Below are positions 2,682-22,979 of a DNA stretch of 25,306 nt, piece after piece (positions within the stretch are counted from its first letter, which is position 1; every line of letters starts with the position of its first letter). A program made the position numbers and the translations under genes. This DNA is from a virus, in IMG/VR virus record IMGVR_UViG_3300035698_001201, positions 1-25,306 of that record; one strand, 5' to 3'. Below the pieces are notes generated by a model, which was not told the origin of the DNA, did no database searches, and saw nothing but the letters and a program-made list of their open reading frames with translations.

Positions 2682-4139
2682 TTATCTTACAATGATTACA
2701 CTACAAGTAGCTGGGTCTTCTGGTGAACCAGTAGTATCTATTTTTGTGATTACTTGAACAGCGGCAGTCGTATAAGTTCCACCCTGTTTCAATGTTCCAC
2801 TTAAATTATTATCACTCGCTGCTCTTGCAGCCGTGACTGAAACAGAATAGTTCGCATCTTCAAGCGCAGAAGTAAACGATACGGTAAAGTCTCCAGCACT
2901 GTTACGAGCAACACCACTTACGTTATAGCTTGCTCCAAGGACAGGAGGCGTAGCACCAGTGAATTTAGCAAATGCAACAACCTGTGGTAACGCATCAATC
3001 TCATCGTCAACATACTTCTTCGTAGCAACATGCTTGTTGTCAGTAATCGTAGGGTCACTATCAAAGATTGGTATTGATGCTGCTGGGAATGTAATAACTC
3101 CGTTCATATCAAGAGTTCCACTCATAACGACAGCACCAGATGAGATAGTCATTGTCTGGTTGTTACCTGCCCAGAAGCGTAAGACATCTTCATCAGCAGT
3201 AGCTTCAGCAGTAATCTTTGTGTCTCCGTCTGCGTCTGTAATATTATCAACAACATTCTCAGTTGCTATACCACCTGATGCAAATACAATTATGCGCCAT
3301 GTATCAGAACCCATAGCAGTGACATGAGAAGATACGTCCAGTGTGTCTTGATCAACAGTAATACTATCGTATGCGTCATAGTCTACTATTTCATTATTCG
3401 CGTCTTTCACGAAAGCTACTGTGTCAAGTGTGTTTAGACTATGGTTGACTGTTAAGACGCCAGCCGTTAGATCAGCAGCAGTGAAATCTTCTGCATAAGC
3501 TGATGTATCACCGAGACTATACCTCGTCCATGTTCCTGCTGAACCGCAGTAATACATTTTGCCTGTGTCGTAAGCAAGGTATAAATCCCCAACAGTAGGA
3601 GACGCAGGTTTGCTCGCATCAAGCCCTGTGCTGAACGTACCGTTATATTCGCCTAAAGCTGTCAATGCACCCCAGTCGAGCGCAGAGCCGTCATTCGTTA
3701 AATACTTTCCATCTTCAAGAGAAGGGAATGTAAGATTATCAGTCGCGCTTACATCTTGAATGATAACACGGTCAATCTGCTCTTGTAAGCCTTTGCAGAT
3801 CAGCGTGAGCTTGTCCCATACGTTCTCAACAGTAGCAGCCGGAAGAGGATCGTTCTCTTGTAAGTCTGATTCTTGTGTAATTTCCATGCCTAGCTTAATG
3901 ATTATTTTATACAATGCGCTGTATGTGGCTACCGTAGTCACATCACCACCGCCAGACTCACCTGCATCAGATACCGTATAGTCTGTAGTCAGAGCGAGAG
4001 TTGTTTCTGTCCCATCGGATATGGTGTATAAGATAACCTCAAGGTTAGCGTCGGCTATAATCCTCCATGTGTAAGGAAATACTACCGTCGCTGCATCGCA
4101 TGTGTACGTTATTTTACTTGTTTCTGTGGTGATCGTCAT
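2682..4139 (-). CDS. Tail fibre protein, 485 aa
   Basis: The N-terminal ~115 residues are the podoviral fibre adaptor module that attaches the fibre to the tail: a beta domain with VVFPYTWRI and TTDYTVSDAGESGGG, then LQENDPLPAATVENVWDKLT and a short helix GLQEQIDRV. Next come strand-rich shaft segments. Around residues 365-375 is DNKHVATKKYVDDEI, a motif common in phage fibres. The last ~95 residues (VAFAKFTGATPPVL...YNVSGVARNSAGDFTVSF) are a beta C-terminal domain seen in many fibres, probably the receptor-binding tip. It follows the ejection protein by 10 nt and has a GGAG-type ribosome site. The role is host recognition. Confidence 0.85.
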   Translation of the reverse strand: MTITTETSKITYTCDAATVVFPYTWRIIADANLEVILYTISDGTETTLALTTDYTVSDAGESGGGDVTTVATYSALYKIIIKLGMEITQESDLQENDPLPAATVENVWDKLTLICKGLQEQIDRVIIQDVSATDNLTFPSLEDGKYLTNDGSALDWGALTALGEYNGTFSTGLDASKPASPTVGDLYLAYDTGKMYYCGSAGTWTRYSLGDTSAYAEDFTAADLTAGVLTVNHSLNTLDTVAFVKDANNEIVDYDAYDSITVDQDTLDVSSHVTAMGSDTWRIIVFASGGIATENVVDNITDADGDTKITAEATADEDVLRFWAGNNQTMTISSGAVVMSGTLDMNGVITFPAASIPIFDSDPTITDNKHVATKKYVDDEIDALPQVVAFAKFTGATPPVLGASYNVSGVARNSAGDFTVSFTSALEDANYSVSVTAARAASDNNLSGTLKQGGTYTTAAVQVITKIDTTGSPEDPATCSVIIVR

Positions 4140-4149
4140 TTCATCTCCT

Positions 4150-7100
4150 TTACATATATTCGTTATCTTCGTTTTCTAACATATAAGAACTGAATCCTAA
4201 TAGCTTACCTACTCCCATTCTGTAACTTTCTTCCTCTATAGCCTCAAGACCTTCTGAAACTTGTTTCAATCTCTTTGTGCTGAACCCTGCACCCATCGCA
4301 CCAACAGGCTCAGACATAAGCGATACTGCGTTTGCAATGTCTTCCCACATAATATCTTCAATCTTTATGGATGACATAACACGCTGTATCTTATTTACTT
4401 CGCTCGCAACTGGAGTTTCTGATCCGTAGTTATCAAGGCCAAGACCCCAGTTAATAGCTGATTCTATAATATCGCCCCAGAAGAAAATACCGTTTATTGA
4501 CCCAAGTATCGCGGCTCTTATCTGTTCTTCAAGGTCCAAGTGTCCCATATTAGATACTAACTGCCATATCTGTGGAAGTAAGAAATGAAATACCGCAATA
4601 GTTTTCACATCTTTCCAAGTGCTTCCATACCCTTTGCCATTTAGTATGTTTCGCGCAGCCATGTATTCTTTTCGTATATATTGATTCGGAGATGTTTGAA
4701 ACATCGTAAAAAACTTTGTGAATCCTGCTCTTGATTGAAACGTAGATAACTGATCAAGATTAGATGATTGTTGTGTCTCGTTGAAAGCCTGCTCAAATTC
4801 TCTGATAGCGTAGGTCTCTGCGTCTGCGTCGCTCATCTTGTCATCCTTCGCTTGATCGTATGCTTTGAGATATGATCCGTAGCCACCGAGATAGATAGCT
4901 CCTTTGTCTCCCCACATAGTAAAGACCATTAACGAATTTAAGAAGCTAGGCTGTGTTACAAACGATTGCCATTCTTGTGATGCCATCATATCTTGTATGT
5001 CGCGTGTGTTGCCCATGCCACGATTTTGAAGCTCAATAGACTTGTTGAGAGTATTAACGACTTTTACTGGATTAGCTGCTAACGCAAGCACTCCTTTAGT
5101 GAAATATCCTAACCCCGCATTGTCTATGAATGCGAAAGAAGATAATAGTTGCTTAATTGTCTGAGCAGGCTTTGCCATAAGCGTTGCTCTTGTGATGTTG
5201 ATTCTTAGCTTATCGACCCAATCAAATGTCTGGCTTTTGTCAATGCCGCCTCTTGCAAACTTCTGAACATGCTCACTCATTGTTCGTAAGAAGTTACCAT
5301 TACTATACTTCTGTACGTTTTCAATAAACGCTGGATCGCGCAAGACACCGTTGATTTGTCTGATTTTATCAGCAAACGCAACATAATGCGTAAGCTCTGT
5401 AACATGCCGAGCCAATACGTTTAGATCGCTGTTCTGGTCAAGATCAAGTACGCTTGAAACTCTGTCTTTCGTTGAACCAGGGGTGGCTGACTTTCTGTAA
5501 CTCACCTCTTTGAGAAACTCGCTTGTGTCTGCTTCTCTGTGATAGCCTCGTCTTTTGATTGGTGAGTACCATTCATTGAAAGTAAGTTCGCGCCCCATGA
5601 CTTTGCTATATACTTCATTGACTGGAGACCAGAACCTACGATAAAAATCTATCTGTGCCATAGCAAATGCTTTATCTTGTGGTGTAAGAAAGTTATTTAT
5701 AGCCTCTCTGATCTCTGTTGTGTAGCCCATGCCGCGTCCTTCGATCTCACCAGTCTTCGGATTCTCAGTTACCTCATATCCAAACGTAGCTTGAAGACTT
5801 GGATCGAGTAACTCCATATATCTTTTACGAGCCTCGGCTCTTGAGAATCTCAAGTCAAGCTCTTTACCGTTGGCGAACTTGAACACACCGAGGCTAACCA
5901 CTTTGTTGTCTTGATTGAACTTACGTTTCAGCCCAGCGTTTGATTTAAGTCCGTATATCTCCATAGCCTTTTCAGTGATGTCACCCATCCATGTAGAAAA
6001 CAAACCCTTCTCAACAGTTGTTTCATCAGACACTCTCATGTCTTCTTCAAACTTTTTGCGCTTCTTGTCTTTTGAATTAAACCCTGTGAGTGTGACAATA
6101 TTATTCCATGAATTTTGTGACTGACCTATGCCATGAAACTTTGCTTTAAACGAATTAGCGAAATCTTTTGCTCTGCTTGTTTTTGTTGCTCGTCCAAGCA
6201 TACCACCAACGACTGTATCATTTGCGTTTTCAACGACTGCTTGAAAATGCTCAACTTCTTGTATGAGTTGCTCAATTCTTTTAGCGCGACCTGTTGCAAT
6301 GATTTCAGTTATCTGTGTTGATGCGCTCATCATGTCATCCATATTATCAGAGTTAAGTTGTGCGATCACGTTTGCAGCATATATACGCAACGACTCTTCG
6401 GCTGAAGGAACTTCTGTCACTTTATCAGACGCGCCAAGAGTTAATTCAGCTTGTAATTCAGCTTCATTCATCTTTGATGCTGTGCGAATCGTATCAAGTA
6501 TCTTCTGTTCAAGTGCTGTGTATTTTCCTTTGTTCTTAGCTTTGAACTTTGCTTTCTTTAATTGACTCATTACCTTTGCTCTAAGTGTCTTAACAGCAGT
6601 GTCTTGCGCTATTTGATTTACCTTGTTTATCGCGCGTGACATTTGAAGATTTGTTTTGATCGACGCTGCTTTAGTAATGAGTTTGCCTCTATCCTTCATC
6701 GTGAGATTTTCACGAACATACTTTGCAAATTCTTTCTTCATATCTTCAAGGCTGTTACGTTTGTTTTTCCACTTTTCGTTTAGCTTTGCTCGCGCTTCAG
6801 CGTTCACTCTTTGTTGCGCTGTTACGTCAGATTGTAGTTGCTCCATAGTAATCTGAGGATCAAACATTACAGCAACGTCTTGAGAAATCTGTTGTGTAAC
6901 GACGTAGCTCAAGTAACTCTGTTCAGCTTCTAAACGTGCGACAGATTCTTCTATTCTCTGAGTTCCTTTATTATTAGCTTTCGCTTCAGTAAGCGCAGCG
7001 TTTAAAACATTCAAACTAGAATTAACATTCTTGAGTGATCGCGTTGTTTCTCGTCTTTTAGCTACGTTTAATACATCAACGACTTTCTGTGATGTAGGCT

Positions 7101-9621
7101 TTTGTAATTTAGCTTTCTTTGCTTTCTTTGCCTTCTTAGGCTGTGCATCTTGCCATTCTTTTAGATATTGACTCGCTTTCTTTGCTGAAAGTCCATAATG
7201 CTTTTCGCCACTAGGAAACTCATCATCAAGTCTCAGCTCTGATTTCTTAACTCTTAGTTTTACAACTTTTTCTCCATACCCCTCTGCTTGACCTTTTTCT
7301 TTGTTTGACACAAATATTTCATCTGTATTTTCTTTAGAAATAAAGTCACCATTAATGTCTGAGTTTGTCCTATGGTATACATCTACATATTCATCCTGTG
7401 CATCTTGCCATTCTTTGGTGAGTTGGTCTGCCTGTTCTTTATTTATGCTTGCGTAGCTGCCCTCTTCAGCCTCCCATGTATCAAATCCGTATTTATCTTT
7501 AAGCGTTTTTAGTAATTTCTTGTTTGTGACCTGCGCAGACAAAGTGTCAGCCTTTTCGTCTGCGATAAAGTTCTCAACGATGCCTTGCATGAGCCTATCG
7601 AGATGCCCCTTGCCCCTGTGAGACTCGTCAATCACCACATCGAACCGATGTTCCGACGGTAGGTATTCTCCGTCGAGGTAAGATGCCCCAATGAGCTTGT
7701 CTCCCTTGTAAAGTCCTATAGACGGTTCGCCAAAATTCCCAAGATTGGCGAAAGCATTTTTACCTGCCTTTTCAACGTCTGCTGCCTCGATAGGCTTCGC
7801 CACATACTCCTCAGCAGTTTTGAAATCTTGTGGTCCTTGCATTGCTTCCTCTTGTGCTGTTTCTCCAACGCTTAGAGCTTCCTCTGCTACTGCTTCACCA
7901 AGATACAAAGACGCTTGATCTTTTGCGTAACCTGCGAGTGCTTCTGATACGATTACTTGCTGATTATCTGTGAGCTTTTCACCTGCTTGCGATTTTTTGA
8001 GCGCATTTATAATCTGTTGCTTGCTACCCATCTTCTTAGCATACATCTTTTTATACCATGCAGGATTGTCAGACGTTCTGCCAGTCCTACTCACAACATA
8101 ACCTTCATCATCTTTTCCTGCGCTGCCTTGCTCAACGCTCCCGGCCTCAAGATCGCCAATCATAAAATCTATTGATTCGGCTTGGTCAACTTCCCCTATG
8201 TTTGCTCCAAACTCAAATTCATTTAATGACTTTTCTTCTGCTGCTAACGCTGCTTGATGTGTAGGATTATTAAGCAATTCTTGTGCAGTAGCTAAAGTCG
8301 CAGCTTCTTGCGGTGTAAGCTCTTGCTGACCAACTCCTTCGACTCCTTCAGATTTTATCGTAAGTGCGTCAGCAGTATCTTGCAATGTCTCGGTAGATGC
8401 GTCCACAAGATGCCCTGCGATGTAAACCTCACCCTTATCAGATGGAAACACCTCATTGTTGATTTCGTTCATTACAGAGCCTTTTAAGAGCTTTTTCTGA
8501 TTATCATACACTTTCTTGATAAACTCTTGAGATTGCGTGTCTGTGTACCCTGCGTCGCGTAATTTGCCAACAACACCCTTATTCTCAAGATGTGTGTAAT
8601 ACCCACCGACACCTGTGCCAGTAAGCAATCCCATCAATGCTGAGTAGCCAATATCTTTTGCGATCTTACCCATATCGTCATCTCGCAAGCCTGTGATACC
8701 TGCAATAGCAGCTTCGCCACCAGTTTGTAGACCTTCTTGTATTGCTTCAGTCATTCCTCTTAACGCAGTGCGAGCGAACCATGATTTGCCGACGATCTTG
8801 TTTATAGCGAAATCCATACCAAACATCTCAAGAGATCCTTCAACTGCTCCTGCTGCCGTTGATATGCTCGACGCATCAGCAGGTGACGTACCCTTGCTTC
8901 GCGCTTCTTTATACATCGCAGATTTCTGCATTAAAGAAAATGCCGCACCAGTCATTGCAGGACTTCCTGTTGCTGTAGCTATCGCGTATGAAGCACCGAC
9001 AGAACCTATAGCGTTTCCTAGATCATAGCTGAACTTGCCTACGCCTGTTTCTGGGCGCGTGAATCCTATCTTCTCAATAAAATCTTCATTTGCATAATTG
9101 ATTGTTTCTCCGAGATCGACCATTGCTTCGTCTATCTCTGTGTTGTCTGCGACCCAATTTTTGAAGACACTGCCCAACATCGTGAGTGGAGAAAGTGCTT
9201 CAACCTTATATTTAAAAGGAACCGTATCATCTAACAATATACCAAGACCTTGACTCATTTTCGCCATAGTCATATCGCTGTCCATAGTCTCGCCACCCTC
9301 AACCAATAACCCACCTGCAACTTGCGGAGTAGATAAAGCGAAACTCCCGACACCTTTAGCAACACCTACGCTCGATTCAACTGCTTGAGATGCAGCCCAT
9401 CCTACAGCGTCTCCAGTGGCTTTAAGACCTTGAGTAAAAATATTCTCACTTTCTTTCTGAGTATCTTTTTCTACCTTATCAGTATATGCAGCAGTAGCCT
9501 CTGGCGTATTCTGCTTGCCATAGTAACTGGCTGCCTTCGCCATAACCTGTTCATCAGTCACGCCATCTGGCACGTTGAATGAAATATTAAGATCATCTAA
9601 TACTACTCGTCTATCTCCCAT
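4150..9621 (-). CDS. Giant internal virion/ejection protein with GNAT and ART-like modules, 1823 aa
   Basis: By position (last of three genes after the tail tube proteins) and size, this is the analogue of T7 gp16, which is ejected into the host with the DNA. The N-terminus (ISFNVPDGVTDEQVMAKAA) is a motif common in large phage virion proteins. Residues 190-350 are Gly/Ala-rich and amphipathic. Residues 510-575 (RTGR...NPAWYKKM...GEKLTDNQQVIV) resemble a segment of phage polyvalent proteins. Residues 612-727 are GNAT-like, with HRGKGHLDRLM at 668-678. Residues 745-825 are ADP-ribosyltransferase-like, with VYHRT at 748-752. A Lys/Ala linker (828-840) and long coiled coils (845-1130) follow. 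The C-terminal 450 residues have hydrophobic helices and resemble the end of large polyvalent proteins. No transglycosylase motif was seen. The start shares an A with the upstream stop (TAATG). Confidence 0.85.
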   Translation of the reverse strand: MGDRRVVLDDLNISFNVPDGVTDEQVMAKAASYYGKQNTPEATAAYTDKVEKDTQKESENIFTQGLKATGDAVGWAASQAVESSVGVAKGVGSFALSTPQVAGGLLVEGGETMDSDMTMAKMSQGLGILLDDTVPFKYKVEALSPLTMLGSVFKNWVADNTEIDEAMVDLGETINYANEDFIEKIGFTRPETGVGKFSYDLGNAIGSVGASYAIATATGSPAMTGAAFSLMQKSAMYKEARSKGTSPADASSISTAAGAVEGSLEMFGMDFAINKIVGKSWFARTALRGMTEAIQEGLQTGGEAAIAGITGLRDDDMGKIAKDIGYSALMGLLTGTGVGGYYTHLENKGVVGKLRDAGYTDTQSQEFIKKVYDNQKKLLKGSVMNEINNEVFPSDKGEVYIAGHLVDASTETLQDTADALTIKSEGVEGVGQQELTPQEAATLATAQELLNNPTHQAALAAEEKSLNEFEFGANIGEVDQAESIDFMIGDLEAGSVEQGSAGKDDEGYVVSRTGRTSDNPAWYKKMYAKKMGSKQQIINALKKSQAGEKLTDNQQVIVSEALAGYAKDQASLYLGEAVAEEALSVGETAQEEAMQGPQDFKTAEEYVAKPIEAADVEKAGKNAFANLGNFGEPSIGLYKGDKLIGASYLDGEYLPSEHRFDVVIDESHRGKGHLDRLMQGIVENFIADEKADTLSAQVTNKKLLKTLKDKYGFDTWEAEEGSYASINKEQADQLTKEWQDAQDEYVDVYHRTNSDINGDFISKENTDEIFVSNKEKGQAEGYGEKVVKLRVKKSELRLDDEFPSGEKHYGLSAKKASQYLKEWQDAQPKKAKKAKKAKLQKPTSQKVVDVLNVAKRRETTRSLKNVNSSLNVLNAALTEAKANNKGTQRIEESVARLEAEQSYLSYVVTQQISQDVAVMFDPQITMEQLQSDVTAQQRVNAEARAKLNEKWKNKRNSLEDMKKEFAKYVRENLTMKDRGKLITKAASIKTNLQMSRAINKVNQIAQDTAVKTLRAKVMSQLKKAKFKAKNKGKYTALEQKILDTIRTASKMNEAELQAELTLGASDKVTEVPSAEESLRIYAANVIAQLNSDNMDDMMSASTQITEIIATGRAKRIEQLIQEVEHFQAVVENANDTVVGGMLGRATKTSRAKDFANSFKAKFHGIGQSQNSWNNIVTLTGFNSKDKKRKKFEEDMRVSDETTVEKGLFSTWMGDITEKAMEIYGLKSNAGLKRKFNQDNKVVSLGVFKFANGKELDLRFSRAEARKRYMELLDPSLQATFGYEVTENPKTGEIEGRGMGYTTEIREAINNFLTPQDKAFAMAQIDFYRRFWSPVNEVYSKVMGRELTFNEWYSPIKRRGYHREADTSEFLKEVSYRKSATPGSTKDRVSSVLDLDQNSDLNVLARHVTELTHYVAFADKIRQINGVLRDPAFIENVQKYSNGNFLRTMSEHVQKFARGGIDKSQTFDWVDKLRINITRATLMAKPAQTIKQLLSSFAFIDNAGLGYFTKGVLALAANPVKVVNTLNKSIELQNRGMGNTRDIQDMMASQEWQSFVTQPSFLNSLMVFTMWGDKGAIYLGGYGSYLKAYDQAKDDKMSDADAETYAIREFEQAFNETQQSSNLDQLSTFQSRAGFTKFFTMFQTSPNQYIRKEYMAARNILNGKGYGSTWKDVKTIAVFHFLLPQIWQLVSNMGHLDLEEQIRAAILGSINGIFFWGDIIESAINWGLGLDNYGSETPVASEVNKIQRVMSSIKIEDIMWEDIANAVSLMSEPVGAMGAGFSTKRLKQVSEGLEAIEEESYRMGVGKLLGFSSYMLENEDNEYM
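7141..7416 (-). repeat. 21-bp perfect direct repeats flanking the ART-like module
   Basis: Two identical 21-bp copies lie at 7141-7161 and 7396-7416. The offset is exactly 255 bp (85 codons), so both are in the same frame and both encode KEWQDAQ (residues 736-742 and 821-827). The intervening residues are the ART-like module. Recombination between the copies would remove or add the module without shifting the frame. Confidence 0.9.
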
Positions 9622-11099
9622 TACGCAAAATCCTTTGCACTAAGATGAAACTCTTGCATTGCGTTATCACCATTCTCAATCGCCTTTTGTGTCTCTAGAG
9701 GCAACTGAGAGATTGGACCAGTGTTATTACTGCGAACATACCCAAGCAATGTTTCTCGTCCTTCGTCTGTTGTGACATCTAAACTCTTTTCTGGGTAATC
9801 ATTAATGTAATCAAGATATGAATTAACAACTAATGTCTGTTGATCTGGGCCGCCGCTTGTAACTTTCATTGCGTAATTCTCAAGCAATGCGCGTACAGGC
9901 TTATCGCGTTTGATCTTCCTTATGCCTTGTTCAAGCCATGATTTTGATACGTTAGCAACAAGAATGTCATAAGTTCCTTTTGTTATCTCGCCTCGCCCGA
10001 ATCTTTCATTCTGTTTATCAAGCCACGTTCTTACGGCTTTCATTTCCTCATAATCGTTGCCATCAATACTTATGCCGCCATCTTTTTTAGTAGCCTTTCT
10101 TGTATTGATCCTTCCATCTATTATGCCTTCCAATTCTCTGATGCCAGTATAGATAACAGACATGTTGTTTCCACTGACAGAATTTGCTTTTCGTAACTTT
10201 ATCTCTGCTTGTTGTCTGGTCTTGCTTCCTATCTCAGCAGAAATGTTATATTGAAGTTGATCGTTTGAATATTCGCTAAGATCAGCATGTGCGCCGTCCC
10301 ATTCTTCTTGTTCCCTTGCGTCGTTCATATCAAACATCTTAACCTTACGGCTATACTCAGTATTAAGTGCAGCAGTTGCTTTCGTTCTTTCTTCTGGAGT
10401 CTTCAAATCTTGTATGCTGAGTAATGTTTTGTCTCTTAACGCGAGTGCTGAATCTCTCGTAGGTGCTGTAAGCATATCATCCTTAGAAGCCGCGACCCTA
10501 GCTCCCGGTATGGCTTCATTAAACTCTTTGATCTCTTGATCTATTAACTCTTGTGGATATTCTCTCAGTTCGCCATAGTTCTGAAGTCTTGCGTTGGTTA
10601 TCGCCTTTTGCTGCGCGATCTGATAAGGGTCATCCTGCATACCAACAAACAATAAATCAGCAGCAGACATTTCTTCCATCGTCGCACCAGTAACCTTAAA
10701 TTCTCTGTTAGCAAAAGTTTTGCTCGTTGTGACCTTAAACATATTAAGTCTTTGATTCGCCATAGCGATGGACTTAGTTCTGCCTCCATGTGAAGATACA
10801 TCCTCGCCAGCCGTTCCTATTAACTCTTGCGCTTTCTCATAAATAACTTTCTGATCTTTCAGGTCAACTGTTTTTGCTTCTTCTTGTAGCCCTGCAAGAC
10901 CTAAAGAAATTCTTGAATCGTCTACGGATGTTTCTCGTAATTTACGCGACTGAGCGAGTTTTGATGTAACCACTTGTAACTGTTGAGATAGATTTCCAAC
11001 AGCCTTGTTCGTGCCTTGAAACGCATCTTGTGATATTGGTGTGGCAACATCTCCCATATTTAGCCCAACGCTTTGCTTATATTGTGGTATTTTCGCCAT
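9621..11099 (-). CDS. Internal virion protein, T7 gp15-like, 492 aa
   Basis: The middle of three ejection genes. The N-terminus (MAKIPQYKQSVGL, then VATPISQDAFQG) matches the opening typical of podoviral internal core proteins. The rest is almost wholly helical, with many charged heptad-like stretches (for example residues 24-60 and 215-300). There is no signal peptide or membrane segment. Its length is somewhat below T7 gp15 (747 aa). It lies 2 nt after the gp14-like gene, and its stop overlaps the start of the giant ejection protein. It likely forms part of the inner core and, after ejection, the periplasmic tube (family knowledge). Assignment rests on position and general character rather than a diagnostic motif. 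Confidence 0.7.
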   Translation of the reverse strand: MAKIPQYKQSVGLNMGDVATPISQDAFQGTNKAVGNLSQQLQVVTSKLAQSRKLRETSVDDSRISLGLAGLQEEAKTVDLKDQKVIYEKAQELIGTAGEDVSSHGGRTKSIAMANQRLNMFKVTTSKTFANREFKVTGATMEEMSAADLLFVGMQDDPYQIAQQKAITNARLQNYGELREYPQELIDQEIKEFNEAIPGARVAASKDDMLTAPTRDSALALRDKTLLSIQDLKTPEERTKATAALNTEYSRKVKMFDMNDAREQEEWDGAHADLSEYSNDQLQYNISAEIGSKTRQQAEIKLRKANSVSGNNMSVIYTGIRELEGIIDGRINTRKATKKDGGISIDGNDYEEMKAVRTWLDKQNERFGRGEITKGTYDILVANVSKSWLEQGIRKIKRDKPVRALLENYAMKVTSGGPDQQTLVVNSYLDYINDYPEKSLDVTTDEGRETLLGYVRSNNTGPISQLPLETQKAIENGDNAMQEFHLSAKDFA

Positions 11100-11101
11100 T
11101 T

Positions 11102-11557
11102 TTAATCTCCATATTCATCTTGGTAAATGCTTATTCCACCGCTTACGCCAGCCATGAGAGTGTTCATCGCCCCAGACTGTCTTGAATATTTTTCTTGCGC
11201 TTGAAGGATAGCACCAGTAGAATTTGCTTTAGCTATCGCAGCCATCTTATTTAATTCTATCGCAAAAATATCCATTTCAACGTCTTCAACTGTACGCATC
11301 ATCATGTCTATCGGTGAACCTATAAACTTCACTCCTGCTTTCGCATAGCGAGCTTGTTGCATACCGACAAATCTGTGACCTTCTTTTCTTTTACGATCTT
11401 GCTCAAACTTAGCATTAACATTAGCTATGCGGATGTTCGCCCCATTCACTGCTTGGTTATAAGCAGCGTTAGAAGCGCCCTGTTGCCCTTGAGCATATTG
11501 AGAATACATGTTGCCAAGTGTGCTAAGTACACCCATAGCCATAAGTCCAAAAGCCAT
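11102..11557 (-). CDS. Internal virion protein, T7 gp14-like, 151 aa
   Basis: I choose ATG 11557 because a strong GGAGG lies 7 nt upstream and the ATG follows the stop of the tail tubular B gene by 2 nt. The open frame reaches 34 codons further into that gene but has no supported start. The product has a hydrophobic N-terminus (FGLMAMGVLSTLGNMYSQYA), a helical middle (NAAYNQAVNGANIRIANVNAKFEQDRKRK), then ARYAKAGVKFIGSPIDMM and VEMDIFAIELN. This is the pattern of gp14-like proteins (A..GV...GSP...). In T7, gp14 inserts in the host outer membrane during ejection. A C-terminal Gly/Ser stretch follows. Confidence 0.8.
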   Translation of the reverse strand: MAFGLMAMGVLSTLGNMYSQYAQGQQGASNAAYNQAVNGANIRIANVNAKFEQDRKRKEGHRFVGMQQARYAKAGVKFIGSPIDMMMRTVEDVEMDIFAIELNKMAAIAKANSTGAILQAQEKYSRQSGAMNTLMAGVSGGISIYQDEYGD

Positions 11558-11559
11558 AT

Positions 11560-13593
11560 TTATCCTCCGTCCGATGTCATCATAAATGGCACAATAGCCA
11601 CAAGTGTTAATGGTAATGGCTGCTCTTGCACGATAACAATATGAGCGTCTTTTCCCCACCCTTTATTGTAGCGAATAAACTTATCACCTGTGTAAACTGA
11701 TGGAGGCGCATCTGTATCATCACCGACATCTCTGAATGAAATTGTATCTTGTTTATCAGTTCCGCCAACTTTGCAACCTAATGTTTTATATAGTCTCAAT
11801 CCTATTTTGTAGATAACTTTCTGTTTAAGCTGTGAAGTACCAGCGATAGAACCATATTCAAGATTAACCGTTTGAATAGTTGAAGTGTAGGGAAGCCCTG
11901 CCTGTACCTTTGTTGCAGAAACAGCTAGGGTTACCGCCCCAGAAGCAACAGTCCTATTAGGATGTGTCGCGCCATCGACTAATAAGGCAACGGATTCTCC
12001 TTCTAAATGATCTAAGCCAGAAATCGTCGTTGTAGCAACACCATCGTAGGTAAGACCACTATCAACAAAAAAGCAATCTTCTTGATCGTCACCCCATGTC
12101 GTAGGCTTCATGTATTCTATTGTGCGTACAGTAGCCTCATTTACTGTTCTCTTGACCGCGAGCCAGACTTGATCTTCCTCACCGTTAGGAATTACTGCAA
12201 CAGATTCTACTACTGCGTTGCCTGTTCCAAAAGAACCGCCCATTATCTGACGAGTCCATGCTGATACTTTATGGCGTATCTGCCGAGTGAAGGTAGCTAA
12301 CTCTCCGTCTGTTCTTACTAACCAGAGCATGTTTTCTGGAGACTGCTGATATTCTAAATCAGTGATACCAGATTCAGTAACATGATCCGATAAGTCTGTC
12401 ATATCATTTGCTATGTAATTATCATATTCAAGACTGTAAGCAAACTCCCTCAAAGTGCGCGAGTTTCTTTGAATATAATAAACAGCGTTTCCTATTCGTT
12501 CAGTGCCAATTAATGACGCACCGAAAGTTGTTTTTCTTCTAACGACTACGTTAGCATATGTAACTGGGTTAGATTCACTTCCTGATGAAAGTGTGAATAC
12601 ACCACCAGCCGTACCGAGCATAAGCTCAATCCCCGGATCAAGCACCCTAATCTCATTTACTTGATTTGTTGCTATAACATATATAATTGCGTCTATGTCC
12701 ACTGGACCATCTCCTGTAGTATCAGTGTCCATATTGTCATACTCTTGTGAGACTGAACCCCAAATATGCTGTGGGTATGACGTTGATCCTGCGAGGAAAA
12801 GCCTTTGCTCATAAAAGCACACACATCTTGGAAATCCATTCGGTATCGAGAAAGCTCCTTCTGCCCAATCATCTGACGGTGTGGCTGAGTTATTAAGATC
12901 GCCAGCAGTTCCATCTGGCTCGTCCTGCACTGTTGCTGTAACGCTCGTTGTAGACGCTGTTGCAGTAATCTTGACATATCCATCATCAAGTCTCCATATA
13001 GAGCCGATACTGCTTGTAACTGTAAAAGGAGTGTGCCCTGTTGCGGTAATTGTTACGGAACCTGTGTCGGCTGATGCTGTTAATGTATCTGCTGTATCTG
13101 TGTTTGTTGATAAGAACGGGCCACGCTGAAAGTCAACATCAGCGATAGTCCATGCTGAATGACCAGATCGAGTGAGCTTTCGTGGAGGATAATCTTCATG
13201 TGTGATATACATAGTGTCAGCGTCTTGTGCGAATTGAAGATCAAAGAGATCAGCCGTCTTATAAGTCGTGACTAATTCATACGGAGTGCTTGGAGCAGAC
13301 TCAACCTGCCCATCGTCTTTATACACACGCATATAGAGATTGCCGAACTCTAAAACGTATACTTGCTCTGTGTTAAATTCAAACGGCAATAGACGTACTT
13401 TTTGTGAAGCAGTTTTTACTCCAGAAACATAATACGTTCCCGGTCTGCGTGATACTGTGCCATAATGAGAAACAAGCACATTCTCTAATGTATTTGCGCC
13501 AGATGTATATTGTTCAACATCAACGCGCCCATACATGCGAGGTGCAATCTCACCAGAATTAAATGTATTTATTATAGGTGCTATCTTACTCAT
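11560..13593 (-). CDS. Tail tubular protein B / nozzle, T7 gp12-like, 677 aa
   Basis: The N-terminus (PIINTFNSGEIAPRMYGRVDVEQY) with NVLVSHYGTVSRRPGT at about 38-53 is diagnostic for the podoviral tail nozzle. Residues around 105-140 (TTYKTADLFDLQFAQDADTMYITH) are the second conserved block. The remainder is beta-rich, with an inserted Thr/Ala-rich beta domain at about 165-235 (repeated TVT/TAT strands). It forms the distal tail tube that closes the channel and contacts the host surface. It lies 15 nt downstream of the gp11-like gene. Length is a little below T7 gp12 (794 aa). Confidence 0.9.
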   Translation of the reverse strand: MSKIAPIINTFNSGEIAPRMYGRVDVEQYTSGANTLENVLVSHYGTVSRRPGTYYVSGVKTASQKVRLLPFEFNTEQVYVLEFGNLYMRVYKDDGQVESAPSTPYELVTTYKTADLFDLQFAQDADTMYITHEDYPPRKLTRSGHSAWTIADVDFQRGPFLSTNTDTADTLTASADTGSVTITATGHTPFTVTSSIGSIWRLDDGYVKITATASTTSVTATVQDEPDGTAGDLNNSATPSDDWAEGAFSIPNGFPRCVCFYEQRLFLAGSTSYPQHIWGSVSQEYDNMDTDTTGDGPVDIDAIIYVIATNQVNEIRVLDPGIELMLGTAGGVFTLSSGSESNPVTYANVVVRRKTTFGASLIGTERIGNAVYYIQRNSRTLREFAYSLEYDNYIANDMTDLSDHVTESGITDLEYQQSPENMLWLVRTDGELATFTRQIRHKVSAWTRQIMGGSFGTGNAVVESVAVIPNGEEDQVWLAVKRTVNEATVRTIEYMKPTTWGDDQEDCFFVDSGLTYDGVATTTISGLDHLEGESVALLVDGATHPNRTVASGAVTLAVSATKVQAGLPYTSTIQTVNLEYGSIAGTSQLKQKVIYKIGLRLYKTLGCKVGGTDKQDTISFRDVGDDTDAPPSVYTGDKFIRYNKGWGKDAHIVIVQEQPLPLTLVAIVPFMMTSDGG

Positions 13594-20427: not shown

Positions 20428-20895
20428 TTATCCTCCTGCTAAAATTGGTTGATAGATTGAAGCATCGTCTTGCGCTCCCTGATTAGATGTATAAATTGTT
20501 TCACCGTATTTGTCTATTCGATACAAACGACTTCTTGCTCTACGCAATGCTTCGTCTGAAGCATCTGACTCTGCTTGTGCTGCTCGCGCTTCAATATCAG
20601 CAGCACCTGCGTTAGGATTATAATTCGGTGAGCTTGGTGACATAGCACCCATTAGCATTGAACCGCCTGCGTACACTGCTGCACCAACGGCTGCATAGCC
20701 AGCAGCAGTCGTAAGCGCACCACCTATGCCAGTAGTAAACGCGGTTGAGATCACTCCGGCCCCGATACTTGCGCCTGCTGATAGTGCAGCAGAACCAACA
20801 AAAGCTATGCCAGTAGAAATTGCTGCGGCTGTTGCGATAAATTCTTTTTTCTCTTTGCCTTCAAACTCTGGATAGTCGTAATGATAATGTTTCAT
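20428..20895 (-). CDS. Glycine-zipper, membrane-active-like virion protein, 155 aa
   Basis: Residues 1-17 are charged and aromatic (KHYHYDYPEFEGKEKKEF). Residues 18-85 are almost wholly Ala/Gly/Ser/Thr with small hydrophobics (for example IAFVGSAALSAGASIGAGV), glycine-zipper stretches long enough for two to three membrane helices. Residues 95-125 are an Ala/Asp/Glu helix ending RRARSRLYRIDKYG. The tail is ETIYTSNQGAQ...PILAGG. ATG overlaps the GNAT-1 stop as ATGA. It may be a pore, ejection or small tail protein (inference from composition and place). I do not recognise a family. Confidence 0.65.
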   Translation of the reverse strand: MKHYHYDYPEFEGKEKKEFIATAAAISTGIAFVGSAALSAGASIGAGVISTAFTTGIGGALTTAAGYAAVGAAVYAGGSMLMGAMSPSSPNYNPNAGAADIEARAAQAESDASDEALRRARSRLYRIDKYGETIYTSNQGAQDDASIYQPILAGG

Positions 20896-21344
20896 GTTAT
20901 GTCCTTTATGTACTGAACCTCCATTGGCTCATAGCCCATGCGTTTATATAAGTTTTTCATCTTGTCATCGTTGAGGCCACAAATATATCCTATGATTAAC
21001 TGAGGAACGCCTTTTGATTTGCAAAATTCCTCAAGTTTCTTAATGAGCTTGATGCCGTACTTCCTGTGTTTCGGCGTAACGTACCAGATCATCTCTTGGT
21101 ACATCGGCTTCCCAGTGAACGGTGACATTCCTATCGCACCACCTATGACACCAACGACACGATCTTCGTAAGTAAGAACAAACGACGTAGGGAAAAGAGC
21201 TTCTAATAATTTCAGCATTGACTGCTCGTTGATCGCCCCGACGAATACTTCTAATCTTTCATCTACAAAAGAAAGAACGAGTTTCATTACGTCATCAAAA
21301 TCTGAATAGGATGCTTCGCGCACCTCGTATTTAGGTTTACTCAT
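20892..21344 (-). CDS. GNAT acetyltransferase-like protein 1, 150 aa
   Basis: A clear GNAT layout: YEVREASYSDFDDVMKLVLSF (strand 1, helix 1), SFVLTYEDRVVGVIGGAIG (strands 2-3), MYQEMIWYVTPKHRKYGIKLIKKLEEFCKSKGV (strand 4, acetyl-CoA loop, helix 3), QLIIGYICG (strand 5) and LYKRMGYEPMEVQYIK. The loop RKYGIK keeps one Gly of the usual Q/R-x-x-G-x-G/A. Start ATG overlaps the terminase stop (ATGA). Single-domain GNATs of this type occur in phage late operons; what they acetylate is unknown. A paralog lies at 19747-20196. Confidence 0.8.
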   Translation of the reverse strand: MSKPKYEVREASYSDFDDVMKLVLSFVDERLEVFVGAINEQSMLKLLEALFPTSFVLTYEDRVVGVIGGAIGMSPFTGKPMYQEMIWYVTPKHRKYGIKLIKKLEEFCKSKGVPQLIIGYICGLNDDKMKNLYKRMGYEPMEVQYIKDIT

Positions 21345-22903: not shown

Positions 22904-22932
22904 CTTATATCATACGAGATTGAAGTTGTCAA
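22904..22932 (-). promoter_or_regulatory. Sigma70-type promoter for the late operon
   Basis: On the minus strand, -35 TTGACA (22932-22927) and -10 TATAAG (22909-22904) are separated by exactly 17 nt. The -35 is perfect and the -10 is five of six. Transcription should start near 22897, giving a roughly 45-nt AT-rich leader (repeats of TTTTTATA) before the terminase TTG. This is the best promoter I see in the window. The -35 overlaps the first GTTNNNAAC site. Confidence 0.75.
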
Positions 22933-22979
22933 CAGGTTATTAACATTCATCAACAGGTTATTAACATTTTGTTGATAAC
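22925..22979. promoter_or_regulatory. Array of GTTNNNAAC sites, likely operator
   Basis: A 19-bp direct repeat (TCAACAGGTTATTAACATT) occurs at 22929-22947 and 22950-22968, 21 bp apart, which is two helical turns. Within and around it are four GTTNNNAAC dyads: 22925-22933, 22936-22944, 22957-22965 and 22971-22979. The first covers the promoter -35; the others lie upstream, where an activator would sit. Two copies read GTTATTAAC. A regulator of late transcription is the simplest reading. The alternative is a set of replication iterons next to an AT-rich stretch (22861-22903). Confidence 0.6.

Follow-up and report, generated by a model that had tools for sequence, protein, structure and literature searches.

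The 1823-aa protein encoded at the gp16 position of a T7-like podovirus carries, in its middle part, a predicted GNAT-like module followed by a compact ADP-ribosyltransferase (ART)-like module, and the latter is bracketed exactly by a 21-bp direct repeat. The window analysed is a complete virus record of 25.3 kb (25,306 nt), and its relevant features are collected in Table 1. In our favoured interpretation, which we hold to be reasonably probable, this is a polyvalent T7-like ejection protein with a GNAT-like domain and a recently acquired ART-like cassette, acting at entry. A sequence-only reading of the same DNA had proposed that the gp16-position protein contains a GNAT-like module besides an ART-like one, and sequence, profiles and gene order support this proposal. 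Both modules are located where it had placed them (7147–7790), but the upper bound is two bases off the frame. Its GNAT stretch, residues 612–727, corresponds to 7788–7441 and its ART stretch, residues 745–825, to 7389–7147, both on the minus strand, and the motifs HRGKGHLDRLM, VYHRT and GYG occur in the ORF exactly as it had written them. In profile and relative searches, both the GNAT part and the ART-like part exceed chance.

Table 1. Positions in the window of the gp16-position gene, its neighbours, the two predicted modules and the flanking repeat
Feature	Position	Strand	Evidence
Tail-fibre gene, after the ejection genes	2682..4139	minus	phrog_1640, E 1e-27
1823-aa gp16-position ORF, carrier of both modules	4150..9621	minus	ORF call
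21-bp direct repeat AAAGAATGGCAAGATGCACAG, copy 2, end of ART-like module	7141..7161	minus	
ART-like module, residues 743–820 (YHRT, EIFVS, GYGE, LDDEF)	7162..7395	minus	relatives, phrog_6170, hhalign, composition
21-bp direct repeat AAAGAATGGCAAGATGCACAG, copy 1, encodes KEWQDAQ, end of GNAT-like module	7396..7416	minus	
GNAT-like module, residues 604–735	7417..7812	minus	weak Pfam, HRDY3 relative, AlphaFold2, Foldseek
Candidate acetyl-CoA loop HRGKGHLDRLM, residues 668–678	7588..7620	minus	sequence, alignment with HRDY3
492-aa ORF, gp15 position	9621..11099	minus	position only
gp14-like internal virion protein	11102..11659	minus	phrog_418, E 4e-16; weak T7_gp14

From upstream, the genes are ordered as a gp12-like tail protein (phrog_376, 1.6e-198), the gp14-like protein, the 492-aa ORF, the 1823-aa ORF and the tail-fibre gene, with terminase, head-tail adaptor, major head and tail tubular genes further upstream of the ejection cluster. 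For the 492-aa ORF, no Pfam model scored above its cut-off and PHROGs gave no match. The 1823-aa ORF occupies the ejection-protein (gp16) position of a T7-like podovirus. Its product matches, in the C-terminal third, phrog_9880 (2e-14) and a 'structural protein' of Tenacibaculum phage Gundel_1 (8e-16); from the gene order and this C-terminal homology, the protein is probably ejected. Like T7 gp16, it is very large and is encoded between the gp15-position and tail-fibre genes. In T7 gp16, the N-terminal domain is a lytic transglycosylase, whereas Pfam found no such domain in the 1823-aa protein; neither a GNAT nor an ART domain is known from T7 gp16. Scans of IMG/VR with the whole protein, the GNAT part alone and gp12 revealed no close relative of the phage, its gp16 or its GNAT part. 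The sole gp12 relative (L088) shows 33% identity and lies on a contig piece that stops before any gp16.

Four Pfam models matched the GNAT part, every one of them a GNAT, with E-values of 0.012–0.12 and below their cut-offs; the best Pfam GNAT score in the protein was 16.4 bits, as compared to a cut-off of 27. A standalone 129-aa GNAT-like protein of Pseudomonas phage HRDY3 matched the same part with an E-value of 3e-7 (phmmer, ORFs of the fetched loci), and was itself matched by a Pfam GNAT model at 8e-4, below cut-off. In the AlphaFold2 model, helices and strands follow one another as in GNATs; confidence was modest overall and lowest at the acetyl-CoA loop (pLDDT 43–53). When this part was compared with the PDB by Foldseek, GNATs dominated the list (best E 1.2e-3, TM 0.45, probability up to 1.00). 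All of the high-probability matches were GNATs, namely PA3270, Naa50, AAC(6')-Ib and PseH, while the other entries were ribosomal proteins with probabilities of at most 0.35. A PDB sequence search yielded non-significant matches only, which were enriched in GNATs. The predicted fold of residues about 604–735 is likely that of a GNAT. In the alignment with the HRDY3 protein, RGKGHL of the candidate loop lies opposite RGQGHG. The loop had been described as an intact R-G-K-G acetyl-CoA loop; RGKG, and with it the R-x-x-G core, is kept, but the last G/A of R/Q-x-x-G-x-G/A is replaced by leucine. The window also encodes a separate 150-aa GNAT protein (20892–21344, minus strand), which adjoins the large terminase gene, scores 33.9 bits against Pfam Acetyltransf_1, above cut-off, and matches the acetyltransferase family phrog_1249.

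The ART-like module has many relatives. Starting from the first four members, a scan of IMG/VR confirmed 142 relatives (80 loci kept), and four more were found in bacterial genomes. The module was recovered in distantly related proteins with E-values of 1e-18 to 1e-6, and its relatives are either parts of proteins with lengths of about 500 to 3200 aa or standalone proteins of 113 aa. Almost all of those compared (23 of 24) match phrog_6170, which is the same family and for which PHROGs gives no function. Some of the larger proteins with a related module also carry the Pfam domains ART-PolyVal, LPD22 or ddrB-ParB. A core of YHxT, GYG and LDDxF is nearly invariant across the family, and Y749, H750, T752, G781, G783 and D799 are invariant among 74 module sequences. 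The median pairwise dN/dS among the relatives is 0.37, and the family is under purifying selection. The copy in the 1823-aa protein has lost helix 1, which follows YHRT, and carries phenylalanine (F770) in strand 2, where most relatives have tyrosine.

These deviations, together with the leucine at the end of the acetyl-CoA loop and the weak profile scores, could mean that both modules are folded yet catalytically dead here, and act as binding or spacer domains of the ejection protein. We consider this rather unlikely, given that the ART-like copy retains its histidine, threonine and conserved aspartate and the GNAT loop its R-x-x-G core, and that the relatives are under purifying selection.

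The assignment of the second module to the ARTs was examined by profile comparison. In hhalign, ART-PolyVal gave a score of 25.8 and KptA one of 22.4, whereas 17 control blocks, taken from the same proteins, scored 18.4 or less; the corresponding probabilities were low (21% and 6%). The alignments were in the active-site register, with YHxT opposite YHGT and the VYVT strand opposite its counterpart. Among the eleven families listed for the module relatives, weak matches included PTS_2-RNA, Tox-ART-HYD1 and Enterotoxin_a, all of the ART superfamily, and eight of 24 relatives matched PTS_2-RNA (PF01885, Tpt1/KptA), far below cut-off. A match of some relatives to CooT was dismissed as chance, as it was weak, confined to the C-terminal strands and left the motifs uncovered. 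The histidine (or arginine) of ART strand 1 is present as H750, and the strand-2 tyrosine of the H-Y-D/E clades, replaced by F770 here, is found in most relatives. An ART of the T4 Alt-type R-S-E clade was rejected because strand 1 of the module carries histidine.

The Pfam ART-PolyVal model matched the module neither in the 1823-aa protein nor in its relatives, and a PDB sequence search with the module produced only non-significant, unrelated matches. A Foldseek search of the ART-only predicted model, which has five strands and lacks helix 1, returned nothing significant from the PDB and no ART. This last result, the low hhalign probabilities and the fact that Pfam ART-PolyVal misses the module yet matches another stretch in the same proteins would agree with an unrelated, small beta-rich domain of 78 residues, present in large polyvalent proteins, whose YHxT resembles that of ARTs by chance. 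This alternative seems improbable to us: both top-scoring profiles represent ART families and align in the right register, above all controls, and in L041, L022 and L019 the module profile independently places its second-best sites on the ART-PolyVal domains, with non-significant scores. Because the match to the ART-PolyVal and KptA profiles exceeds all 17 controls, ART-like is, with good probability, the best call for the predicted domain of residues 743–820, despite the absence of ARTs from the PDB fold search. The ART assignment of the sequence-only reading is thereby upheld by the profiles but not by the fold search, and its view that the GNAT call is the firmer of the two survives.

Within the ART-like interpretation, the module resembles two known families without belonging to either in Pfam. 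The DGT...VYHGT start, the VYVT strand and the A..Y helix of ART-PolyVal (PF18760) align with it, and both domains co-occur in proteins L041 and L019. However, ART-PolyVal spans about 140 positions, as compared to 78–85 in the module, its Pfam model does not match, and the aspartate of LDDxF is only a putative counterpart of the ART-PolyVal catalytic aspartate. In Tpt1/KptA (PF01885), YHGT, the following helix, the V[HY][LV][ST] strand and the following glycine align with the module, but the KptA N-terminal lobe is missing and the scores are far below cut-off. Two standalone relatives, Enceladus gp109 (L089:2471-2815) and Faith1 gp116 (L090:1947-2303), both annotated as hypothetical, belong to mycobacteriophages of the subfamily Lclasvirinae. 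Both genes lie inside tRNA gene clusters and adjoin one whose product Faith1 annotates as a nuclease. The standalone versions amid tRNA genes and the KptA resemblance together hint at an RNA substrate, and by analogy the module may act on RNA in a KptA-like manner.

The repeat AAAGAATGGCAAGATGCACAG is the only exact direct repeat of at least 16 nt in the 1823-aa ORF, and none like it is expected by chance (shuffles). Its copies are 255 bp (85 codons) apart, which makes the bracketed segment an in-frame unit. The ART-like module is the most AT-rich stretch of the ORF and ranks among the lowest 0.3% of ORF windows for GC as well as GC3; its GC3 is 22%, as compared to 50% in the adjoining GNAT-like module (top 3% of the ORF). 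Among the module relatives with enough flanking sequence, exact flanking repeats of 25 nt in L002 and 21 nt in L001 compare with at most 11 nt in their own random-placement controls, the 14-nt repeat of L013 exceeds its control weakly, and most others have no flanking repeats above controls. As only the 1823-aa ORF, L001, L002 and, weakly, L013 exceed controls, such repeats mark some insertions and are no general feature. Repeated Pro-rich linkers (APATPKDxPEP and similar) border the module in L001 (about 850–1400) and L002 (about 7850–8700), and L002 has an additional small domain, itself set between further linker copies, as if domains had been added linker-wise. The sole other direct repeat of at least 18 nt in the window, the 19-nt TCAACAGGTTATTAACATT (22929–22968), recurs at a 21-bp step directly upstream of the terminase gene.

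The exact repeat and the shifted composition suggest that the ART-like module is a recent in-frame domain insertion, which duplicated or recombined at linker sequence. No gp16 allele lacking the 255-bp insert was seen among the IMG/VR relatives scanned, so that this history is inferred. A broader proposal, that phrog_6170 and its relatives constitute a separate compact family of histidine-type ADP-ribosyltransferases spreading among ejected proteins via short-repeat in-frame cassettes, is one that we regard as doubtful.

Iyer et al. defined polyvalent proteins in 2017 and predicted that they are injected with the DNA; ARTs and GNATs are listed among their domains, and for one GNAT family an ART is noted as the typical neighbour within a single polypeptide (PMC5512222). 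The pairing idea is therefore already known, since GNAT-ART polyvalent proteins were described in that work, and from its domain content the 1823-aa protein is a further example of this class of predicted injected proteins. It is a very large phage protein encoded among virion genes (terminase, adaptor, major head, tail tubular, gp14-like and fibre), and it combines two unrelated enzyme-like domains, GNAT-like beside ART-like, recognised by sequence and profile. It differs from the described examples (PMC5512222) in that no Pfam domain scores above cut-off, and hence no recognised polyvalent Pfam domain is present, in that neither a metallopeptidase nor an LPD was found, and in that its module is not ART-PolyVal; recognised Pfam domains do occur in proteins with a related module. 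In a 3149-aa protein of another phage contig (L015), the ART-like module (1036–1121) is followed in the same frame by a GNAT match at about 1240–1293, which appears as an independent case of the pairing; this protein also has a weak ART-PolyVal-like stretch at 2052–2185. The Gundel_1 structural protein (L006:2388-9833, 2482 aa) contains, besides a GNAT-like domain, the metallopeptidase-like motif HEFGH, and by these features shows polyvalent-protein character in a cultured phage. New here are the gp16-position example, a module outside Pfam and the repeat-bounded cassette.

In the mechanism that we propose, the gp16-position backbone protein would be packaged in the virion and would enter the cell with the DNA, carrying in its middle linker-joined accessory effector modules. 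The GNAT-like domain would transfer acetyl to an amino group of a host protein, while the compact ART-like domain would spend NAD+ in modifying a host macromolecule, both acting ahead of phage gene expression. The ART-like module would have been gained recently as an in-frame 255-bp cassette, leaving the 21-bp direct repeat at its borders. T4 Alt, to which the sequence-only reading had likened this arrangement, is a member of the R-S-E clade of ARTs (PMC5512222). The parallel holds for the proposed function, a virion-packaged ADP-ribosyltransferase delivered at infection, but not for the clade, as the first strand of the module is of the histidine type. Alternatively, the enzymes could act in the producing cell, late or in assembly, on phage or host proteins, with virion carriage as a by-product of structural fusion; the gene does lie within the late morphogenesis cluster, and standalone versions of the module occur in non-structural phage regions. 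That such modules have repeatedly been fused to very large proteins belonging to the injected class (PMC5512222) speaks for a role at entry, and we consider action in the producing cell quite unlikely.

If action at entry is true, the host would be exposed to two modifying enzymes as the DNA enters, ahead of any phage gene expression. The cassette with its flanking repeat would show concretely how ejected proteins can acquire domains. The ART-like family is common in viral contigs, and its small standalone mycobacteriophage members are open to expression and assay in laboratory strains.
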